From Polyangiaceae bacterium (lineage in GTDB: Bacteria; Myxococcota_A; Polyangia; Polyangiales; Polyangiaceae), in NCBI GenBank assembly GCA_019637295.1, contig JAHBVX010000010.1, positions 124,001-188,000 on the forward strand: a DNA stretch of 64,000 nucleotides, written 5' to 3'. The notes under the pieces were generated by a model. That model had not been told where the DNA came from, did no database searches, and saw only the letters and a list, made by a program, of their open reading frames with translations. Shown here piece by piece: positions 1 to 18,712 of the stretch. The position numbers were made by a program, and so were the translations under genes. Every line of letters begins with the position of its first letter. The first letter of the stretch is position 1.

Positions 1-738
1 GGTCTTCAGACGGAAGGGAAAGCGCGCGATGCGAAAGACGGAGACGGCTTGACCGTCGAGGCGTGCGGGGGTGCAGCGGCCAGCACGCACGGCCGCCAGC
101 GCCACGGCGTGCAGCTCGCTCGGTCCGCGGACGACGCTCGCGGTCGTGATCGCGCCGCCCTCGCTGACGACGTACTTGACGATCACCGTGCCCTCCACGC
201 CTGCGGCGCGCGCCGACTCGGGGTAGCCTGGCGTGGTGATGGTGCAGCTCGGCGGGGTGACGTTCTCCGAGACGCGGATGGGCCCGGCGGGCTTGGGGGG
301 TGGCGGCGGAGGTGGCGGCGGAGGTGGCGGTGGCGCCACCGTCTGCACGGGCGCCGTCACGGGCGCGCCGGTGCCGCCGCCGGTGGCGTACGGATCGCCG
401 CCGGTGGGTCCGTCGCCGGTCGGGGTCGTCTCCGCGGGCTTCGAGTCGGGGATCTGATCGGGCGGCCTGAGCGTGGGCAGGCGTGGCCCGGGCCGCGGTG
501 GCTCGGGCTTGGGCTGCTCGACCACCGCCTCGGGCTCCGGCTCCGGCTCGGGCTGCTCGGGAGCCGTCGCCAGCGCGACCGTGAGCGGCTCTTCCTCCGT
601 GACTACGACGCCGCTGGCGGTGAGCGCGACGGTGATGGCGACTCCAAAGGCGCCGACCGAACCGATGGCGTAGCCGATCGCGAGGCGCCGGCGCCGCACT
701 GGGTCCTTGCTGCCTGTGGTCCAAACCGTGAAGTCCAT
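1..738 (-). CDS. TonB-like energy-transducer protein, C-terminus cut by window edge
   Basis: Reading from an ATG at 738 down to the window edge gives 246 codons with no stop. The N-terminus (MDFTVWTTG) is followed by one membrane segment (about residues 22-42) and a Pro/Glu-rich stretch. A run of about 12 prolines is encoded by the GGTGGCGGC-type tract at 298-333. The end is a TonB C-terminal fold with the typical GYPESARAAGVEGTVIVKY signature and a later LAAVRAGRCTPA segment. TonB-family proteins span the periplasm and pass proton-motive energy to outer-membrane transporters. No exbB/exbD or receptor is visible, so the partner is unknown. It is transcribed away from the phosphate regulators. 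The terminal residues lie outside the window. Confidence 0.82.
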   Translation of the reverse strand, partial: MDFTVWTTGSKDPVRRRRLAIGYAIGSVGAFGVAITVALTASGVVVTEEEPLTVALATAPEQPEPEPEPEAVVEQPKPEPPRPGPRLPTLRPPDQIPDSKPAETTPTGDGPTGGDPYATGGGTGAPVTAPVQTVAPPPPPPPPPPPPPKPAGPIRVSENVTPPSCTITTPGYPESARAAGVEGTVIVKYVVSEGGAITTASVVRGPSELHAVALAAVRAGRCTPARLDGQAVSVFRIARFPFRLKT

Positions 739-900
739 CGCCAGGTGCCGGGAGAGTCCCTCGCTCCAGTGACGCCCGAGTGTCACGTGAGAAACTTGAG
801 CGTGAAACCAAACCTTCGACGATTCGTCGCCGAACCCGCTCAGGTTCGCTCCGAGTTCGTCACGCACGCGCCGACGCCTTCGTGCTGGATCGCTACTCGC

Positions 901-918
901 GCGTCACTGTTCAGTCAC
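901..918 (+). promoter_or_regulatory. Candidate degenerate Pho box before the first PhoB-like gene
   Basis: The layout is GCGTCAC-TGTT-CAGTCAC: two 7-nt elements containing GTCAC with 11-nt periodicity, as in PhoB sites (CTGTCAN-N4-CTGTCAN). Matches to CTGTCAC are 5/7 and 6/7. It ends 24 nt before the ATG at 943. Weaker than the box at 1675. Confidence 0.4.
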
Positions 919-942
919 AATGCTCCGCTACTCAGTCTGCGA

Positions 943-1632
943 ATGGCCGCCATCCTGGTCATCGAGGACGAGTCCGACATCCAGGAAGTCCTCGAGTACA
1001 ACTTGAAACAGGCTGGGCACGACGTAACCACCGTCGCGTCCGGTCAGGAGGGGCTGCGTCTGGCGCGGGACCGAAGCCCCGATCTCGTGCTGCTCGACCT
1101 GATGCTCCCGGACGTGTCGGGCACTGACGTCTGTCGAGCGCTCAAGGAGGACTCGCGAACCCGCGCCATGCCGGTGGTCATCCTCACGGCGCGGGACGAC
1201 GAGATCGACCGGGTGGTGGGCTTCGAGCTCGGGGCGGACGACTACGTCACCAAGCCCTTCAGCGTGCGGGAGCTGATCCTCAGGATCCGCGCGATCTTGC
1301 GCCGCAACGAGGGAGCCCCGCCGCAGCCGAACGTGATCGAGTTCGGCCAGCTCGAGGTGGATCGGGACGCCCATCGGGTCTGGGTAGCCAAGGAGGAGCT
1401 CGACCTGACCGCGCTCGAGTTCAAGCTCCTCCTCACGCTGTACGATCGGCGAAATCGCGTACAGTCCCGTGGCGCTCTGCTCGATGCGGTGTGGGGTATC
1501 GACACCCGCATCAGCGCGCGCACCGTGGACGCCCACGTCAAGCGCCTGCGCGAGAAGCTCGGAGCTGCTCGGGACTACGTGGAGACCGTGCGCGGGGTGG
1601 GCTATCGCTTCACCGAGGAGCCCCTGGGTTGA
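943..1632 (+). CDS. PhoB/OmpR-family response regulator (first of two tandem copies)
   Basis: A 229-aa two-domain regulator. The receiver domain has acidic residues E8-D9-E10, the phospho-acceptor D52 in LLDLMLPD, and the conserved Lys in DDYVTKPFS. A winged-helix OmpR/PhoB DNA-binding domain follows (about 130-225), with TALEFKLL, RTVDAHVKRLREKL and the closing VETVRGVGYRF. The ATG at 943 was chosen because the open frame continues upstream without protein-like sequence, through the region used by the TonB gene on the other strand. The closest relative is the next gene, with the same length, layout and many shared segments. It lies 110 nt upstream of that paralogue and probably takes phosphate from the PhoR-like kinase at 2441. 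Confidence 0.93.
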   Translation: MAAILVIEDESDIQEVLEYNLKQAGHDVTTVASGQEGLRLARDRSPDLVLLDLMLPDVSGTDVCRALKEDSRTRAMPVVILTARDDEIDRVVGFELGADDYVTKPFSVRELILRIRAILRRNEGAPPQPNVIEFGQLEVDRDAHRVWVAKEELDLTALEFKLLLTLYDRRNRVQSRGALLDAVWGIDTRISARTVDAHVKRLREKLGAARDYVETVRGVGYRFTEEPLG

Positions 1633-1674
1633 CCGGCGACGGCGCCGACCGTCAACTCCGCCCGAACATCCGCG

Positions 1675-1692
1675 CTGTCACCTGCCTGTCAC
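1675..1692 (+). promoter_or_regulatory. Pho box, perfect CTGTCAC direct repeat
   Basis: CTGTCAC-CTGC-CTGTCAC: two identical 7-mers separated by 4 nt, 18 nt in all, which is the classic PhoB-binding architecture. It lies between the two PhoB-like genes, 51 nt before the ATG at 1743. This predicts positive autoregulation of the second regulator and the kinase gene. Confidence 0.75.
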
Positions 1693-1742
1693 ACGACCGG
1701 GCTACACCCCCGCCGACTCCCAAAGAACGCGCCGAGGCTCCC

Positions 1743-2444
1743 ATGGCCAAGATCGTCGTCGTCGAAGACGAAAAAGACCTGCAAGACTTGCTCACCTACA
1801 ACCTCGAGCAGGCGGGCCACACCGTGGTCGCCGCGGATCGGGGCGCCGAGGGAGTGCGCTTGGTGCGCGAGCAGCGACCGGACGTCGTGCTGCTCGACCT
1901 GATGCTGCCCGACATCTCCGGCACCGAGGTGTGCCGCACGATCAAGAACGATCCGAGCTGCCGGCGAACGGCCGTGGTGATGCTGACGGCGCGCGGCGAG
2001 GAGGTCGACCGGGTGGTGGGCTTCGAGCTCGGCGCGGACGACTACGTGGTCAAGCCCTTCAGCGTGCGCGAGCTCCTGCTACGGGTGCAGGCCATCCTGC
2101 GCCGGAGTCACCCCGCGGAGCCGGGCTCGGACGAGCTGATCGAGTTCGGCGTCCTCAAGGTCGATCGCCAGGCACACCGGGTCTGGGTGAGCGGTGAAGA
2201 GATCGAGCTCACGGCGCTCGAGTTTCGGCTGCTGATGACGCTCTATGAGCGGAAGAATCGCGTGCAGACCCGCTCGGCTCTGCTCGACGACGTCTGGGGT
2301 ATTCAGGCGGACATTACCACCCGCACCGTGGACACCCACGTCAAGCGGCTCCGGGAGAAGCTGCTCGGAGCGCGGAACTACGTGGAGACCGTGCGCGGCG
2401 TCGGCTACCGTTTCTGCGGTAGTCCCGACGAGGCCGTGGCTTGA
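1743..2444 (+). CDS. phoB: PhoB-like phosphate-regulon response regulator (second copy)
   Basis: A 233-aa receiver plus winged-helix regulator, with D52 in LLDLMLPD, Lys in DDYVVKPFS, and a C-terminal effector domain ending VETVRGVGYRFCG. In this family phosphorylation drives dimerisation on tandem 11-nt-spaced half-sites. A perfect such site lies just upstream (1675-1692), which supports PhoB rather than another OmpR-type name. The stop overlaps the TTG start of the histidine kinase by 4 nt, so the two are translationally coupled. The paralogue at 943 differs mainly in surface residues and in the linker. Which copy is the main phosphate regulator cannot be told from sequence. Confidence 0.93.
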   Translation: MAKIVVVEDEKDLQDLLTYNLEQAGHTVVAADRGAEGVRLVREQRPDVVLLDLMLPDISGTEVCRTIKNDPSCRRTAVVMLTARGEEVDRVVGFELGADDYVVKPFSVRELLLRVQAILRRSHPAEPGSDELIEFGVLKVDRQAHRVWVSGEEIELTALEFRLLMTLYERKNRVQTRSALLDDVWGIQADITTRTVDTHVKRLREKLLGARNYVETVRGVGYRFCGSPDEAVA

Positions 2445-4195
2445 CGCTAGGTGTCCGCACCAAACTCTTTCTGATATCCCTCGGGTTGATCGTGCTGACG
2501 GTCGCCCTCGGCTATGCGTACGTGCATCGCACGGTGGAGCGTGAGCTGACCCGCGAGGTGCAGGCGGAGATCGCGATTCGCGCGCGGCTCGCGGCGGCCG
2601 AGGTGGAGCGGCTCGCGCCGGCGTTCGAGGATGTTGCCGCGTGGCAGCGGCTCGCCGGCACGCTGGCGGAGCTGTCGTCCGGTCGCGTGACCCTCGCGCG
2701 CGCGGATCGCCGGGTGCTCGCGGACTCGGCGGGCGAGAGTCTTCTCGACCTCGGGCCCGAGTTCGAGGGGGCCCTCGACCTCGGCCGCGCCCAGGCCATC
2801 CGCGCGGACGCCGCGGGTACTCGCACCACCTACGCGGCGGCGGCGTTTCGACGGGAGGGGCGCCCCGCCGGGGTCGTGATCGTGTCGGTTCCGCTGTCGC
2901 AGGTGGATGCCGTGCTCGGGCGGGTTCAGCGGCTGCTTGGCGTGGCGGCCCTGTTCGGGATCGCGCTCGCGGTGGTGCTGAGCAGCATCGCGGCGCACCT
3001 GGCGTCGCGCACCGCGCGCTCCCTGACCGAGTCGGCACAGCGCATGGCCGCGGGCGACCTGGCCACTCGGGTGCGCCCGACGGGGCGCGACGAGCTGGCC
3101 GAACTCGGCAACGCGCTCGACCACCTGGCCCAGAGCCTGTCGTCCTCGTTGGAGGAGCTGAAGCAGCAGAACGCACGGACGACCGGCATCCTCACGCGCA
3201 TGCAAGAGGGCGTGCTCTTGCTGGGTCCGGACGGGCGCGTGGGGCTCGTCAACCCCGCGCTGCGGGAGATGCTACTGCTCGGTGCGGACGCGGTGGGCAA
3301 GACTCCCCTGGAGGTCATCCGGCATACCGAGCTGAAGCAACTGTTGGATCGGGCGCTCCACGATGGTCAGACCGTGACCGCCGAGATCGAGGTTGGCGGC
3401 TTGAAGCCGCGCCGGCTGCTGGTGCGGGCGGCTCCGCTCGAGGGCGACCAGAGCGGCGTCTTCGCCGTGTTCGTCGACGTGACGGAGGTGCGCCGCCTCG
3501 AGTCGCTCCGTCGCGACTTCGTGGCCAACGTCTCGCACGAGCTTCGCACCCCCGTGACCGCGATCCGCTCTGCGGCGGAGACTCTGCAGCTGGCGCTCGA
3601 GCGGGATCCCAAGTCCGCGGCACGCTTCGTGGACATCGTGGACCGCAACGCGGTGCGACTGCACGAGCTGGTCGAGGACTTGCTCGACCTGTCCCGCATC
3701 GAGTCGCGGCAGTACAAGCTGACCCTGGAGCCGCTCGAGCTCGAGCCCATCATTCGACGCACGCTGGGGTTGTTCCGAGATCGCGCCGAGAAGAAGGGGA
3801 TCCGGATGGCGGTGGACGTGCCGGAGGACCTGCCGAGGGTGGAGGCCGATCGACGCGCCCTCGAGCACGTGCTCACGAACTTGATCGACAACGCGGTCAA
3901 ATACTGTCAACCAGGCGCCTTGGTCACGGTGCGGGCGTCGGTGGTGGTGGGGGGGAAGGTCCAGCTCGCGGTGCTCGACTCGGGGCCGGGCATCGACGAG
4001 AAGCACCTCCCGCGCCTGTTCGAGCGTTTCTATCGCGTGGACGCGGGACGCTCTCGCGAGCTGGGCGGCACCGGACTCGGTCTCAGCATCGTCAAGCACC
4101 TGGTCGAAGCGATGGGAAGCAACGTCATCGTCGACAGCACGGTCGGCGTCGGCACCACCTTCCGCTTCTCGCTCTCCCGCGCCGCACCGGCCTGA
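2441..4195 (+). CDS. phoR: PhoR-like membrane sensor histidine kinase
   Basis: A 584-aa protein starting at TTG 2441, inside the stop of the preceding regulator gene. Order of parts: TM1 (about residues 8-28), an extracytoplasmic sensor of about 130 residues, TM2 (about 167-190), HAMP, PAS (about 245-345), HisKA with phospho-acceptor His366 in SHELRTP, and HATPase_c with an N-box (NLIDNAVKY), DSGPGI and GGTGLGLSIV. The overlap with phoB and the HAMP-PAS-HisKA plan match PhoR-type kinases that control PhoB. The large periplasmic sensor is longer than in E. coli PhoR, as is usual for Gram-positive and delta-type PhoR. No pst or phoU gene is in the window, so phosphate sensing is inferred from context. 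Confidence 0.92.
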   Translation: MTLGVRTKLFLISLGLIVLTVALGYAYVHRTVERELTREVQAEIAIRARLAAAEVERLAPAFEDVAAWQRLAGTLAELSSGRVTLARADRRVLADSAGESLLDLGPEFEGALDLGRAQAIRADAAGTRTTYAAAAFRREGRPAGVVIVSVPLSQVDAVLGRVQRLLGVAALFGIALAVVLSSIAAHLASRTARSLTESAQRMAAGDLATRVRPTGRDELAELGNALDHLAQSLSSSLEELKQQNARTTGILTRMQEGVLLLGPDGRVGLVNPALREMLLLGADAVGKTPLEVIRHTELKQLLDRALHDGQTVTAEIEVGGLKPRRLLVRAAPLEGDQSGVFAVFVDVTEVRRLESLRRDFVANVSHELRTPVTAIRSAAETLQLALERDPKSAARFVDIVDRNAVRLHELVEDLLDLSRIESRQYKLTLEPLELEPIIRRTLGLFRDRAEKKGIRMAVDVPEDLPRVEADRRALEHVLTNLIDNAVKYCQPGALVTVRASVVVGGKVQLAVLDSGPGIDEKHLPRLFERFYRVDAGRSRELGGTGLGLSIVKHLVEAMGSNVIVDSTVGVGTTFRFSLSRAAPA

Positions 4196-13320: not shown

Positions 13321-13842
13321 TCATCGACACACCGGCGCGTCCGGCTCACTCCGGCACGTTGGGCCGCCTTCCTGTACGGGGTCGAAGGCGGTGCCGTCCT
13401 TGACGCAGTACGAGCCAGCGAGCTCGCCCTGGCCGAAGCCCAAGTCGTCGCGCAACTTCACGCAGGAGAAGCCAGACGGGCACTCGCAGTAGCGCGCGCC
13501 GACGGTCGGTCCGTCGCAGCGACAGGAGCAGTAGACGGCGCTGGATGCCGGCCGATCCGTGTCCCAAGCGGCGACCGGAACGGTGACCGCGTCGCCGACG
13601 GACGTCATGCACGAGCCGCTGCCATCCTCCTGCCCTCGGGGACAGGTCACGCGACCCTGGAAGTGGTTGACGAGACAGACCCGGCTCTCGCACTGCACCG
13701 ACCTGGACTCCACGCCGACCTCCTTGATCGAGTAGCCCGCGAAGTCGACGCGCGCTTCGTCCTCCGGCACGCACGGATCGCCCACGCCACCGGTCTGATC
13801 GCACCCCAGGCACAGGGCGACCGCCCACACTAGCTGTTTCAT
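13321..13842 (-). CDS. Cys-rich putative lipoprotein
   Basis: ATG 13842 gives 173 aa and a short signal peptide ending LCLGC. An upstream GTG/ATG frame only adds polar residues. The mature protein has about 17 cysteines, spaced as if paired in disulphides (VQCESRVCLVNHF, VYCSCRCDG, YCECPSGFSCVKL). This style of small Cys-rich exported protein is common in myxobacteria. Function unknown. It converges with the anti-sigma gene and is divergent from the kinase at 13962. Confidence 0.68.
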   Translation of the reverse strand: MKQLVWAVALCLGCDQTGGVGDPCVPEDEARVDFAGYSIKEVGVESRSVQCESRVCLVNHFQGRVTCPRGQEDGSGSCMTSVGDAVTVPVAAWDTDRPASSAVYCSCRCDGPTVGARYCECPSGFSCVKLRDDLGFGQGELAGSYCVKDGTAFDPVQEGGPTCRSEPDAPVCR

Positions 13843-13961
13843 GTTCGAGTCCTCCGACGAGCGCACTCGCGCCCTCTCTCGTTAGTCGCGCGACCACAGC
13901 CGAGTGAGCGCTTCGCAGCCGCGGCACGCGCTCGGGCGCCAACTCTGCTAAGGATGGTCGG

Positions 13962-15914
<1,953 letters not shown>

Positions 15915-15933: not shown

Positions 15934-16962
15934 TCAGCAGTTCGAGCAGCAGTCGCCGTAGTACCAGCACATGGCGTCGCAGTGACATTGGCCGCCGCCG
16001 CTGCCGCCCGCGCCGCTGCCGCCGCTGCCACTGCCGCAGTTGGAGCAGCAGTCGCCGTGGTAGCTGCACTCGGCGTCGCAGTAGCACTGTCCGCCGCCCG
16101 CGCCGCTGCCGCCGCTGCCGCTACCGCCCGCGCCGCTGCCGCCGCTGCCGCTGCCGCAGTTGGAGCAGCAGTCGCCGTGGTAGCTGCACTCGGCGTCGCA
16201 GTAGCACTGTCCACCGCCCGCGCCGCTGCCGCCGCTGCCGCCCGTTCCGGCACCGCCGCTGCCCGCTCCGCCGCCGCCGCTGCTGCCGCCGCTGCCGCTG
16301 CTGCAGTTGGAGCAGCAGTCGCCGTGGTAGCTGCACTCCGAGTCGCAGTAGCACTGACCAGCCGTGGGATCGCCGCCGCCGCCGCTGCTGCTTCCGAGCT
16401 TGGTGGCTCGGATGGCGTGATAGCCGGTGGCATGGAGCGAGCTGGTTGGGCGCGAGCGAAACTGCATGTCGTCGGCGGTGTTGGCCTGCTCGATCACGCA
16501 GGCCTCGCTCTTGGCGCTGTTGTTCCAGCCAAGGAACATCACGATGTGGCCTGCGCCGTTCTTGCGATACACCAGCGCGTCCGCGGGCACGAGCTCATCG
16601 AAGGAGCTCAGGCTCGTCCAGTTGGCGGTGTCTTGCACGAAGTTCGCCGTCGTGTACGAGGTGCCGAGCTGCCAGCACATGGACACGAACCCCGAACAGT
16701 CCGTGCGATAGCCGTTGTAGTTCTTCGTCTGGCTGTACGGCACTTGGGCGTCGTACCACTCGAAGCCCCGCTCGATCGCGGCGCGCCGCGCGCCCTGCAC
16801 GCTCGCCAGGATGGTGTCCCGCGACAGGCTGCAGCCGCTCTTGAGCTCGTGTTCCGAGGTGTCCCCGACGTCGCCGACCTCGGTGCTCGGCTCCGGGACC
16901 GCCGCACAGCTGATGGCCACGATGGATCCGCCCACTGCCTGGAGTGCTCTGAGGATGCGCAT
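15934..16962 (-). CDS. Cysteine-peptidase-fold lipoprotein with four somatomedin-B-like motifs
   Basis: ATG 16962 gives 342 aa with a lipobox-like AISC at residues 16-19. Residues about 65-200 look like an NlpC/P60 or CHAP-type fold: catalytic Cys89 in RTDCSGF and His139 in GAGHIVMFLGW. After residue 205 come four copies of an 18-residue cysteine module (pattern QCYCDxECSYHGDCCSNC) joined by Gly/Ser/Ala linkers. The pattern CxCDxxCxxxGDCC matches the core of the eukaryotic somatomedin B knot. The last copy diverges (HCDAMCWYYGDCC). Expected role: surface peptidoglycan amidase or binding protein. The combination is unusual. Confidence 0.8.
   Translation of the reverse strand: MRILRALQAVGGSIVAISCAAVPEPSTEVGDVGDTSEHELKSGCSLSRDTILASVQGARRAAIERGFEWYDAQVPYSQTKNYNGYRTDCSGFVSMCWQLGTSYTTANFVQDTANWTSLSSFDELVPADALVYRKNGAGHIVMFLGWNNSAKSEACVIEQANTADDMQFRSRPTSSLHATGYHAIRATKLGSSSGGGGDPTAGQCYCDSECSYHGDCCSNCSSGSGGSSGGGGAGSGGAGTGGSGGSGAGGGQCYCDAECSYHGDCCSNCGSGSGGSGAGGSGSGGSGAGGGQCYCDAECSYHGDCCSNCGSGSGGSGAGGSGGGQCHCDAMCWYYGDCCSNC
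15938..16356 (-). repeat. Repeats encoding the four cysteine-knot motifs
   Basis: About 54-nt near-identical blocks at 15938-15990, 16038-16091, 16158-16211 and 16303-16356, separated by GCC/GCT-rich linker DNA. The middle two blocks are identical and 120 nt apart, suggesting recent duplication or conversion. Confidence 0.85.
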
Positions 16963-17696: not shown

Positions 17697-18551
17697 TCAA
17701 GGGCAGCCCGGCGTGTTCGTGATGGTGGCGCCATCCGTAGAGAAGTAGAACGCCCGACGCACGTAGGCCGACTCGAGGTTCGGCTTGTCCTGCACGTTGA
17801 CGGGCACCAGCGCCGACCAGAGCCACTTGGCTTGCGAGGTGGTCAACACCGGCCCCCACGGTCCATCCCCGTGGTTCGCGATCTCGACCGCAGCGGGCCA
17901 CGCCGAGTCGTCGAAGGTCTCCGACGTCCAACCCGTCACCTCGGACGTCGAGACGCGCCAAGACGAATCCGTGACCACGAGCGCCGTGGGCGCGCCATCC
18001 ACGGGCAGGATGAGCTCGCCGATGATACCGCGGTCGTTGCCTGCTTGGCTCGAGGTGTTCGTCCCCTTCACCGCGATCACGTTCTTCTTGCTGGGATGGA
18101 CGAAGAGCGAGACATCGATGGTCACCGCGGATTGCCAGTTGTTGGTGGTCCCAACGCTGCTGCCGTTGACGAACACCTCGCACTCGTTGTCCGCCGTGAT
18201 GCGCAGGGTCACCGTGGCGGTCCCGCTCGTCGGAATGGTCGCGCAGGCGGGATCGGCGTCGGGGGCTGCATCGACGGGAGCGTCCGCGCTCGCGTCCGCA
18301 GCGCCGGCGCTGCCGCCGGTCGAAGCGTCCGCACCCGCAGCTCCACCCGTCGCGCCGGAGCCGCCGGTCGCGCCGGAGCCGCCGGTCGCGCCGGAGCCGC
18401 CGGTCGCGCCGGAGCCGCCGGTCGCGCCGGAGCCGCCGGAGCCGCCGCTCCCTCCTCCATTGGCCTCGGAGTCACCGCCACATGCCATCGCTGCCGCCAT
18501 GGGAACGACGACTGCCGCGAGCCAACGGAGCAGAACCAGTTGTTTGACCAT
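17697..18551 (-). CDS. Lipoprotein with hexapeptide linker and galactose-binding-like domain
   Basis: ATG 18551 gives 284 aa; signal peptide ends AAAMAC. The N-terminal linker contains the hexapeptide GATGGS repeated, encoded by an 18-bp tandem repeat at 18351-18440. After an Asp/Ala-rich stretch, residues about 100-284 look like a beta-sandwich of the galactose-binding type (CEVFVNGSSVGTTNNW, VIAVKGTN, WTSETFDDSAWPAAVEI). This fold appears as a carbohydrate-binding domain in many secreted proteins. No catalytic domain is visible, so binding to sugars or cell surface is the best guess. Confidence 0.72.
   Translation of the reverse strand: MVKQLVLLRWLAAVVVPMAAAMACGGDSEANGGGSGGSGGSGATGGSGATGGSGATGGSGATGGSGATGGAAGADASTGGSAGAADASADAPVDAAPDADPACATIPTSGTATVTLRITADNECEVFVNGSSVGTTNNWQSAVTIDVSLFVHPSKKNVIAVKGTNTSSQAGNDRGIIGELILPVDGAPTALVVTDSSWRVSTSEVTGWTSETFDDSAWPAAVEIANHGDGPWGPVLTTSQAKWLWSALVPVNVQDKPNLESAYVRRAFYFSTDGATITNTPGCP
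18351..18440 (-). repeat. Five 18-bp tandem repeats in lipoprotein linker
   Basis: Five units of CGCGCCGGAGCCGCCGGT in register (18351, 18369, 18387, 18405, 18423). The last unit differs only in its final base. They encode GATGGS repeats. Copy-number change would lengthen or shorten the linker without a frameshift. Confidence 0.9.
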
Positions 18552-18712
18552 GGCGCATCCGACGCCGCTCACTCGCGGCAGTCAAGCGCCTCGACGAGCC
18601 ATCGCGCACCGCGACGCCCGTCCTACAAACGAGTTGCAAACTGCATGACACCTCGAGCACGAGTGATCACTCTCACGGCGACTCCGTCACCGCTACTCTG
18701 CACCGCCACTCG

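Follow-up and report, generated by a model that had tools for sequence, protein, structure and literature searches.

Shortened somatomedin B-like units repeated on a putative NlpC/P60-like lipoprotein of a Polyangiaceae bacterium

The canonical somatomedin B (SMB) domain has eight cysteines, which in vitronectin pair as 5-21, 9-39, 19-32, and 25-31. TINAG and TINAGL1 of animals, like the putative lipoprotein described here (P0001), place an SMB domain on a cysteine-peptidase fold, though unlike P0001 they are eukaryotic, the fold is papain-type and the SMB domain is full. Members of the NlpC/P60 peptidases often possess SH3b or LysM domains. The parts consulted of three papers treat SMB as an animal matrix or plasma domain (PMC8233489, PMC7782431, PMC8417595), the first mentioning it once, as a ligand of PAI-1. 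As described in those parts, the PAI-1 contact lies within residues 10–30 (PMC7782431), and Asp22 binds Arg91 of uPAR in a pose resembling that with Arg101 of PAI-1, the arginine of the partner being held on Asp22 with Phe13 and Tyr28 flanking (PMC8417595). Among the open-licence papers searched, no description of SMB in Myxococcota was found, and no full text combined ‘somatomedin’ with ‘Myxococc’. InterPro and similar databases probably already list bacterial SMB proteins, so any novelty claimed here refers to description in the literature searched and not to presence in databases.

P0001 is encoded within the window, the whole 64,000-nucleotide stretch of DNA that was analysed, and has four short SMB-like units (mini units) behind an NlpC/P60-like domain (Table 1). 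The mini units share with the SMB domains of animals (PF01033; vitronectin, ENPP1-3, ENDOU) the C-x-C-D-x2-C-x5-CC core, the hot-spot Asp, and a modelled helix between cysteines, but are without the N-terminal half, permit three instead of four disulphides, and stand in tandem on a putative bacterial peptidase. SMB proteins with eight cysteines, from this genome and others of the phylum, resemble P0001 in their Gly/Ser linkers, their core, and their joining to other domains, but differ from the mini units in retaining the N-terminal cysteine pair and in mostly having the last cysteine at +6 after the CC.

The open reading frame of P0001 runs on the minus strand from an ATG at 16962 to a stop at 15934-15936. 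A hydrophobic N-terminus leads to Cys19, followed by the peptidase-like domain and a Gly/Ser tail with the four units. Read by eye, the hydrophobic stretch ends in -AISC (VAGC and ALGC in two orthologues), and P0001 is probably lipidated at Cys19. Of the 153 tail residues, 53 are Gly, 29 Ser, and 24 Cys, and neither Lys nor Arg occurs; between the units there is little besides Gly, Ser, and Ala. The preliminary description had reported four copies of CxCDxxCxxxGDCCxxC on Gly/Ser linkers, and all four units fit that motif. Elsewhere in the window, a putative lipoprotein gene (17697-18572, minus strand) contains an 18-bp repeat at 18349-18439 (five copies, 100% matches; TRF) that encodes a linker of Gly, Ser, Ala, and Thr, and a small Cys-rich putative lipoprotein, in which the SMB spacing is absent by eye, is encoded at 13321-13866 (minus strand), adjoining a gene at 13962-15914 labelled as a protein kinase from motifs only. 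No conserved gene neighbourhood was seen when 12 window frames were compared with the regions around four orthologues and a relative (G011); besides P0001, only the frames at 13962 (kinase motifs) and 22084 had matches in these five regions, at differing distances and in shared places.

Table 1. Features of the P0001 locus (positions are those of the window)
Feature	Position	Strand	Residues of P0001	Evidence
Complete gene, 342-aa putative lipoprotein P0001 (NlpC/P60-like peptidase and four mini-SMB units)	15934..16962	-		ORF call; same layout in four orthologues
Putative signal peptide up to Cys19 (putatively lipidated)	16906..16962	-		Sequence only; Cys column kept in 8/10 alignment rows
NlpC/P60-like peptidase domain	16393..16830	-	~45-190	AF2 model, Foldseek, VIA-align, invariant residues
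Mini-SMB unit 1, CYCDSECSYHGDCCSNC	16303..16353	-	204-220	PF01033, motif, shuffle test
Mini-SMB unit 2, CYCDAECSYHGDCCSNC	16156..16206	-	253-269	PF01033, motif, shuffle test
Mini-SMB unit 3, CYCDAECSYHGDCCSNC, DNA as unit 2	16036..16086	-	293-309	PF01033, motif, shuffle test
Mini-SMB unit 4, C-terminal, divergent, CHCDAMCWYYGDCCSNC	15937..15987	-	326-342	PF01033, motif, shuffle test
120-bp tandem repeat, unit and linker	15991..16241	-		TRF: 2.1 copies, 96% matches

The units had been likened to the core of the SMB domain, with a profile search proposed as the check. As a whole protein, P0001 scored above the cut-off of the Pfam Somatomedin_B profile (PF01033; 43.1 bits; cut-off, 23.1; E = 5.4e-11), as did 4/4 orthologues (33.7–42.5 bits as whole proteins); the best stretch in P0001 aligned only with the central part of the profile (14-32 of its 40 positions). 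The four stretches in P0001 were counted at a lax threshold (E ≤ 10), the single stretches passing alone at E ≤ 0.01 numbered 1, 3, 3, and 0 in the four orthologues, and the units of the window are not among the 20 matches of their own genome at E ≤ 0.001. A more specific comparison used an HMM of 102 full-length bacterial SMB domains that a cysteine regular expression had extracted from the fetched loci. Against it were scored 16 distinct mini units, each extended by the residue before it and padded artificially with Gly/Ser. The units scored 19.5–28.6 bits, compared to a mean of 8.8 bits and a maximum of 21.7 bits for 1,600 shuffles in which the cysteines were held fixed; 16/16 units outscored 100/100 of their own shuffles and, pooled, 7/1,600 shuffles reached the weakest unit. 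A profile-profile alignment of the 16 mini rows with 22 bacterial full-length SMB rows gave a probability of 97.8. A profile of the mini units only found nothing significant in the PDB (best E = 0.69, an alphavirus protein; second, ENDOU, 1.2), and phmmer of P0001 against PDB sequences returned 16 rows (best E = 0.0013), with three of the alignments among those listed lying mainly on the Gly/Ser linkers. The whole-protein match, the shuffle test, and the profile-profile alignment support a resemblance to SMB that exceeds cysteine spacing, and descent of the mini units from SMB appears well supported; the proposed relationship stood, but what is present is half of the domain, with six of its eight cysteines.

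Each mini unit is 17 residues long with six cysteines. The core spacing C-x-C-x3-C-x5-CC, the same as that of vitronectin in the profile alignment, and a final cysteine at +2 after the CC (CC-x2-C) are kept in 17/17 units of the five orthologues; conservation of the pattern in homologues had been named as a point on which the idea could fail. Both Asp are likewise kept in 17/17 units, Lys and Arg are absent from 17/17, His occurs in only 4/17, and there are no cysteines outside the units in the five orthologue tails. Compared to canonical SMB, the N-terminal cysteine pair is missing and the last cysteine lies four residues closer to the CC (+2 instead of +6). Six cysteines permit at most three disulphides, so the knot of four disulphides per unit envisaged in the preliminary description was discarded. 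The vitronectin pairs 19-32 and 25-31 fall within the retained half, while the equivalents of Cys 21 and Cys 39 would have lost their partners; we infer a new bond between these two as the simplest rewiring.

How unusual the early final cysteine is could be gauged from a census of 125 distinct CxCx3Cx5CC contexts in the fetched loci, which omitted those with <10 residues after the CC. The next cysteine lay at +6 in 88/125, at +2 in 11/125, and was absent within ten residues in 14/125. The uniform spacing of the 102 full-length domains is partly a matter of construction, because the regular expression fixes most of it. Three loci considered as further mini units (L113, L124, and L172) were rejected, having an early cysteine but with CC-x3-C and additional cysteines upstream. 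Several of the loci L149-L173 (for example L149, L154, L155, and L157) have no DYxxxC after the CC and have CCxxxGxxxxG..C instead, and the SMB-like domains of this set are possibly a second C-terminal variant.

Structure prediction of P0001 with AF2 from a ten-row alignment (mean pLDDT, 56.5; pTM, 0.47) gave a folded domain and a low-confidence tail, with a short helix modelled in each unit (residues 210-213, 257-262, 297-302, and 330-335). A single unit, predicted with a 16-row alignment and no templates, was modelled with one helix and one bridge (mean pLDDT, 79 over the central ten residues; 64 for the whole model). Foldseek of this model against 350,542 PDB chains returned 13 chains at E ≤ 10, all of them SMB-bearing (vitronectin, NPP1, NPP3, and autotaxin) at E-values of 2.7–9.9 that are non-significant alone. 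Seven of the alignments spanned 16–20 columns at an rmsd of 0.9–1.3 and six were longer at 4.4–6.5; the part of the chain aligned was not in the output. VIA-align of the model with the 13 chains it was compared to gave no row with Z ≥ 2. The single-unit prediction that had been proposed as a check gave a helix, a bridge, and exclusively SMB-bearing neighbours, but at weak scores, and since AF2 may have memorised SMB the model is treated as support and not as proof.

At the DNA level, units 2 and 3 agree at 51/51 nucleotides and unit 1 is 96% identical to both (one codon differs), while unit 4 has 80–84% identity to units 1-3, with six codons that differ from units 2/3. The preliminary description of near-identical DNA repeats thus holds for units 1-3 (96–100%) and not for unit 4. 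Units 1-3 also resemble one another more than they do the first three units of the sister species (69–76%), a pattern that tandem amplification or gene conversion after the species split would give. This lends only indirect support to the suggestion of active expansion as far as units 1-3 are concerned; unit 4 does not fit, being no closer to units 2/3 (84%) than is the last unit of another orthologue (G075; 84%). The survey of repeat number in relatives, also proposed earlier, found that the number varies, with 4, 4, 3, 3, and 3 units in the five orthologues.

The possibility that SMB is a one-off in this bacterium was rejected, as eight-cysteine domains are common in the same genome and in the phylum, and the oddity is therefore the shortened form rather than an SMB domain in a bacterium. 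At E ≤ 0.001, PF01033 matches this genome 20 times, in 14 ORFs (a count that omits an overlapping plus-strand frame of locus L013 that matched the regular expression), of which 12/14 are above the Pfam cut-off as whole proteins. Domains found beside SMB in these ORFs include a protein-arginine deiminase (PAD; 289.6 bits), SpoIID, lamin-tail, and transglutaminase-elicitor domains. The deiminase (PF03068) is joined to two full-length SMB domains (L011, own genome C20:170500-176500; ORF 457-3393, minus strand), and a Flavobacteriales protein (L091) combines SMB with a Porphyromonas-type deiminase (PAD_porph), fn3, and a type IX sorting tail. A further ORF of the genome (L020, C11:44500-49000; 1112-2209, plus strand) has tandem Cys-rich repeats with Toxin_12 and Dickkopf_N above their cut-offs, followed by a C-terminal SMB-like domain.

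More broadly, PF01033 is present in 28/98 genomes of the family and 88/377 of the phylum (where the counts per genome were capped), with 14 to 22 matches in each of the five genomes that bear mini units and 34 and 35 matches in two fully searched genomes from a family rich in SMB; there were none in 14 well-known control genomes. A pattern search matched 46 stretches, and the 25 SMB loci with named records comprised 19 from Myxococcota, three from Deltaproteobacteria, and one each from a ‘bacterium’, Flavobacteriales, and Neomarinimicrobiota, the Myxococcota taxa in record titles including Polyangiaceae, Kofleriaceae, Nannocystaceae, Enhygromyxa, and Paraliomyxa. When 22 full-length SMB domains from bacteria were made into a profile, it found 44 PDB sequences at E ≤ 1, with 43/44 from known SMB proteins (ENDOU, 3.5e-13; vitronectin, 8.4e-8; ENPP1-3; SUSD2, only 0.052) and one from a defensin (0.96). 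Judged by these matches, the bacterial full-length domains are clearly related to those of animals.

The mini form was seen only in orthologues of P0001 from five genomes of two genera, namely the window (four units), G001 (four), G055, G075, and G014 (three each). A search for it outside this peptidase found the 17 units in 5/144 related genomes at 36.7 bits or above and the next match at 33 bits; the same gap was present in 377 genomes of the phylum among the 22 or fewer candidates scored per genome, such that a mini unit in SMB-rich genomes could be missed. The first 190 residues of P0001, which hold the peptidase region, matched at E ≤ 0.001 in 62 of the 144 related genomes, one of which is the window's own; many of these matches were to the active-site region only. 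Relatives without a mini-SMB tail include G011, G065, G029, G072, and G048. One relative (G004) has a sub-threshold B_lectin match, and the tails of further relatives lack a relevant Pfam match. Another (L031, G023; ORF 1408-3420, plus strand) has five TSP_3 stretches (152 bits) and an M23 peptidase (82 bits) in one frame that runs off the locus. A pattern search for named relatives of P0001 in genome contigs matched two stretches, none of which was confirmed. In a tree of peptidase domains from 15 hand-picked loci, cut at fixed residues and with three long branches, the five mini-tailed peptidases formed one group (92/96; 96% of 200 bootstrap trees; branch not starred), so that a single gain of the tail is the simplest reading, and the relatives with other tails or none suggest an exchangeable C-terminal module.

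The N-terminal domain had been described as NlpC/P60 or CHAP-type, and both structural comparisons favour an NlpC/P60-like fold, with that evidence resting on an AF2 model of moderate confidence. Foldseek matched MepS (E = 6.6e-3; probability, 1.00) and a CHAP structure (9.4e-3; 0.98), and the top 31 rows of VIA-align for model residues 43-194 (Z = 9.3–10.7) are mostly NlpC/P60 proteins, endopeptidases, and cell-wall hydrolases. Cys89, His139, and Glu158 are invariant in 10/10 alignment rows, and we infer that Glu158 is the third catalytic residue. P0001 resembles the NlpC/P60 peptidases MepS, CwlO, RipA, and Acd24020 in predicted fold (Z up to 10.7) and in Cys/His/Glu, and differs from them in its SMB-type tail and in having no peptidase match in Pfam or NCBIfam at E ≤ 10. 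The domain may be a divergent member of NlpC/P60 or belong to a sister family, and is taken here as a divergent NlpC/P60-type putative peptidase.

We give about an even chance to the reading that a shortened, tandem-amplified SMB domain equips a cell-wall peptidase with a tail for multivalent binding. An SMB domain would have been cut at both ends with its inner half, from the third cysteine to the CC, retained; the two core disulphides would be kept and the orphaned cysteines would pair, giving a 17-residue bead with three disulphides. P0001 would be exported and probably lipidated at Cys19, the predicted Cys89/His139/Glu158 domain may cleave peptidoglycan stem peptides, and the flexible Gly/Ser tail would present four acidic beads without Lys or Arg and with the equivalent of Asp22. 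The tail could then anchor the enzyme to a basic or arginine-bearing target in the envelope or matrix, either its own or that of prey. Because the Asp22 position is kept in 17/17 units and Lys and Arg are absent, the multivalent acidic binding tail is proposed for a surface peptidase with modest confidence. Lys or Arg occurs in 0/16 distinct mini units compared to 35/100 distinct full-length cores (Fisher p = 0.003, with related units treated as independent), whereas the acidity is not special to the mini units, as the full-length cores are equally acidic (3.3 acidic residues, compared to 2.9). Of the residues that flank Asp22, Tyr28 has an aromatic or His equivalent in only 11/17 units, and Phe13 lies in the half that is missing. 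The more elaborate version, where SMB was trimmed to a 17-residue bead, its orphan cysteines paired, and the bead multiplied into an arginine-seeking tail that aims the peptidase at prey or kin, seems rather doubtful.

Several other explanations would account for parts of these observations. With six cysteines in 17 residues, CxC and CC spacing, and two invariant Asp, the units could be reduced, metallothionein-like clusters serving metal storage or sensing on the cell surface, but the non-Cys positions match SMB far beyond the Cys-preserving shuffles, the eight-cysteine paralogues match vitronectin, His is present in few units (4/17), and exported proteins pass through an oxidising periplasm, which makes such clusters unlikely. 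That the units have nothing to do with SMB and converged on its cysteine spacing within a low-complexity tail is highly improbable: the matched region is short (18–19 residues), single units miss E ≤ 0.001 in the genome scan, and the profile of mini units only finds no significant PDB chain, yet the whole-protein PF01033 score, the profile-profile match, and the Cys-fixed shuffles all argue for SMB, and each of the same five genomes abounds in eight-cysteine SMB matches.

If descent from SMB is accepted, the function of the tail may still differ from binding an outside target. The beads may be structural, forming inter-chain disulphides with one another or with other Cys-rich surface proteins in an extracellular layer in which the peptidase is passive cargo; the genome does encode other Cys-rich, Gly/Ser-linked putative lipoproteins and the number of beads is variable, but an even number of cysteines, none of them outside the units, and conserved non-Cys residues suggest self-contained folding, and we consider cross-linking quite unlikely. 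Similarly, the tail could regulate its own peptidase as an inhibitor or propeptide with no outside target, by analogy with the stabilisation of PAI-1 by SMB, and the parts consulted of two papers describe animal SMB acting on a protease inhibitor and a protease receptor (PMC7782431, PMC8417595). The related peptidases without such a tail or with unrelated tails, the long flexible linkers, and the presence of several repeats speak against self-regulation, which we judge to have a decidedly slim chance.

From the loci examined, a large bacterial repertoire of SMB domains emerges on probably exported proteins, and the phylum might have been the source of eukaryotic SMB. The mini units amount to a natural deletion experiment on SMB that bears on which disulphides make a working core, and the reduced form suggests which of the two halves can do without the other. 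The 17-residue bead, if true, would be smaller than any other SMB-type fold known to us, and protein engineering would gain a very small disulphide scaffold. For multicellular predators among the bacteria, the tail is a candidate module for adhesion.
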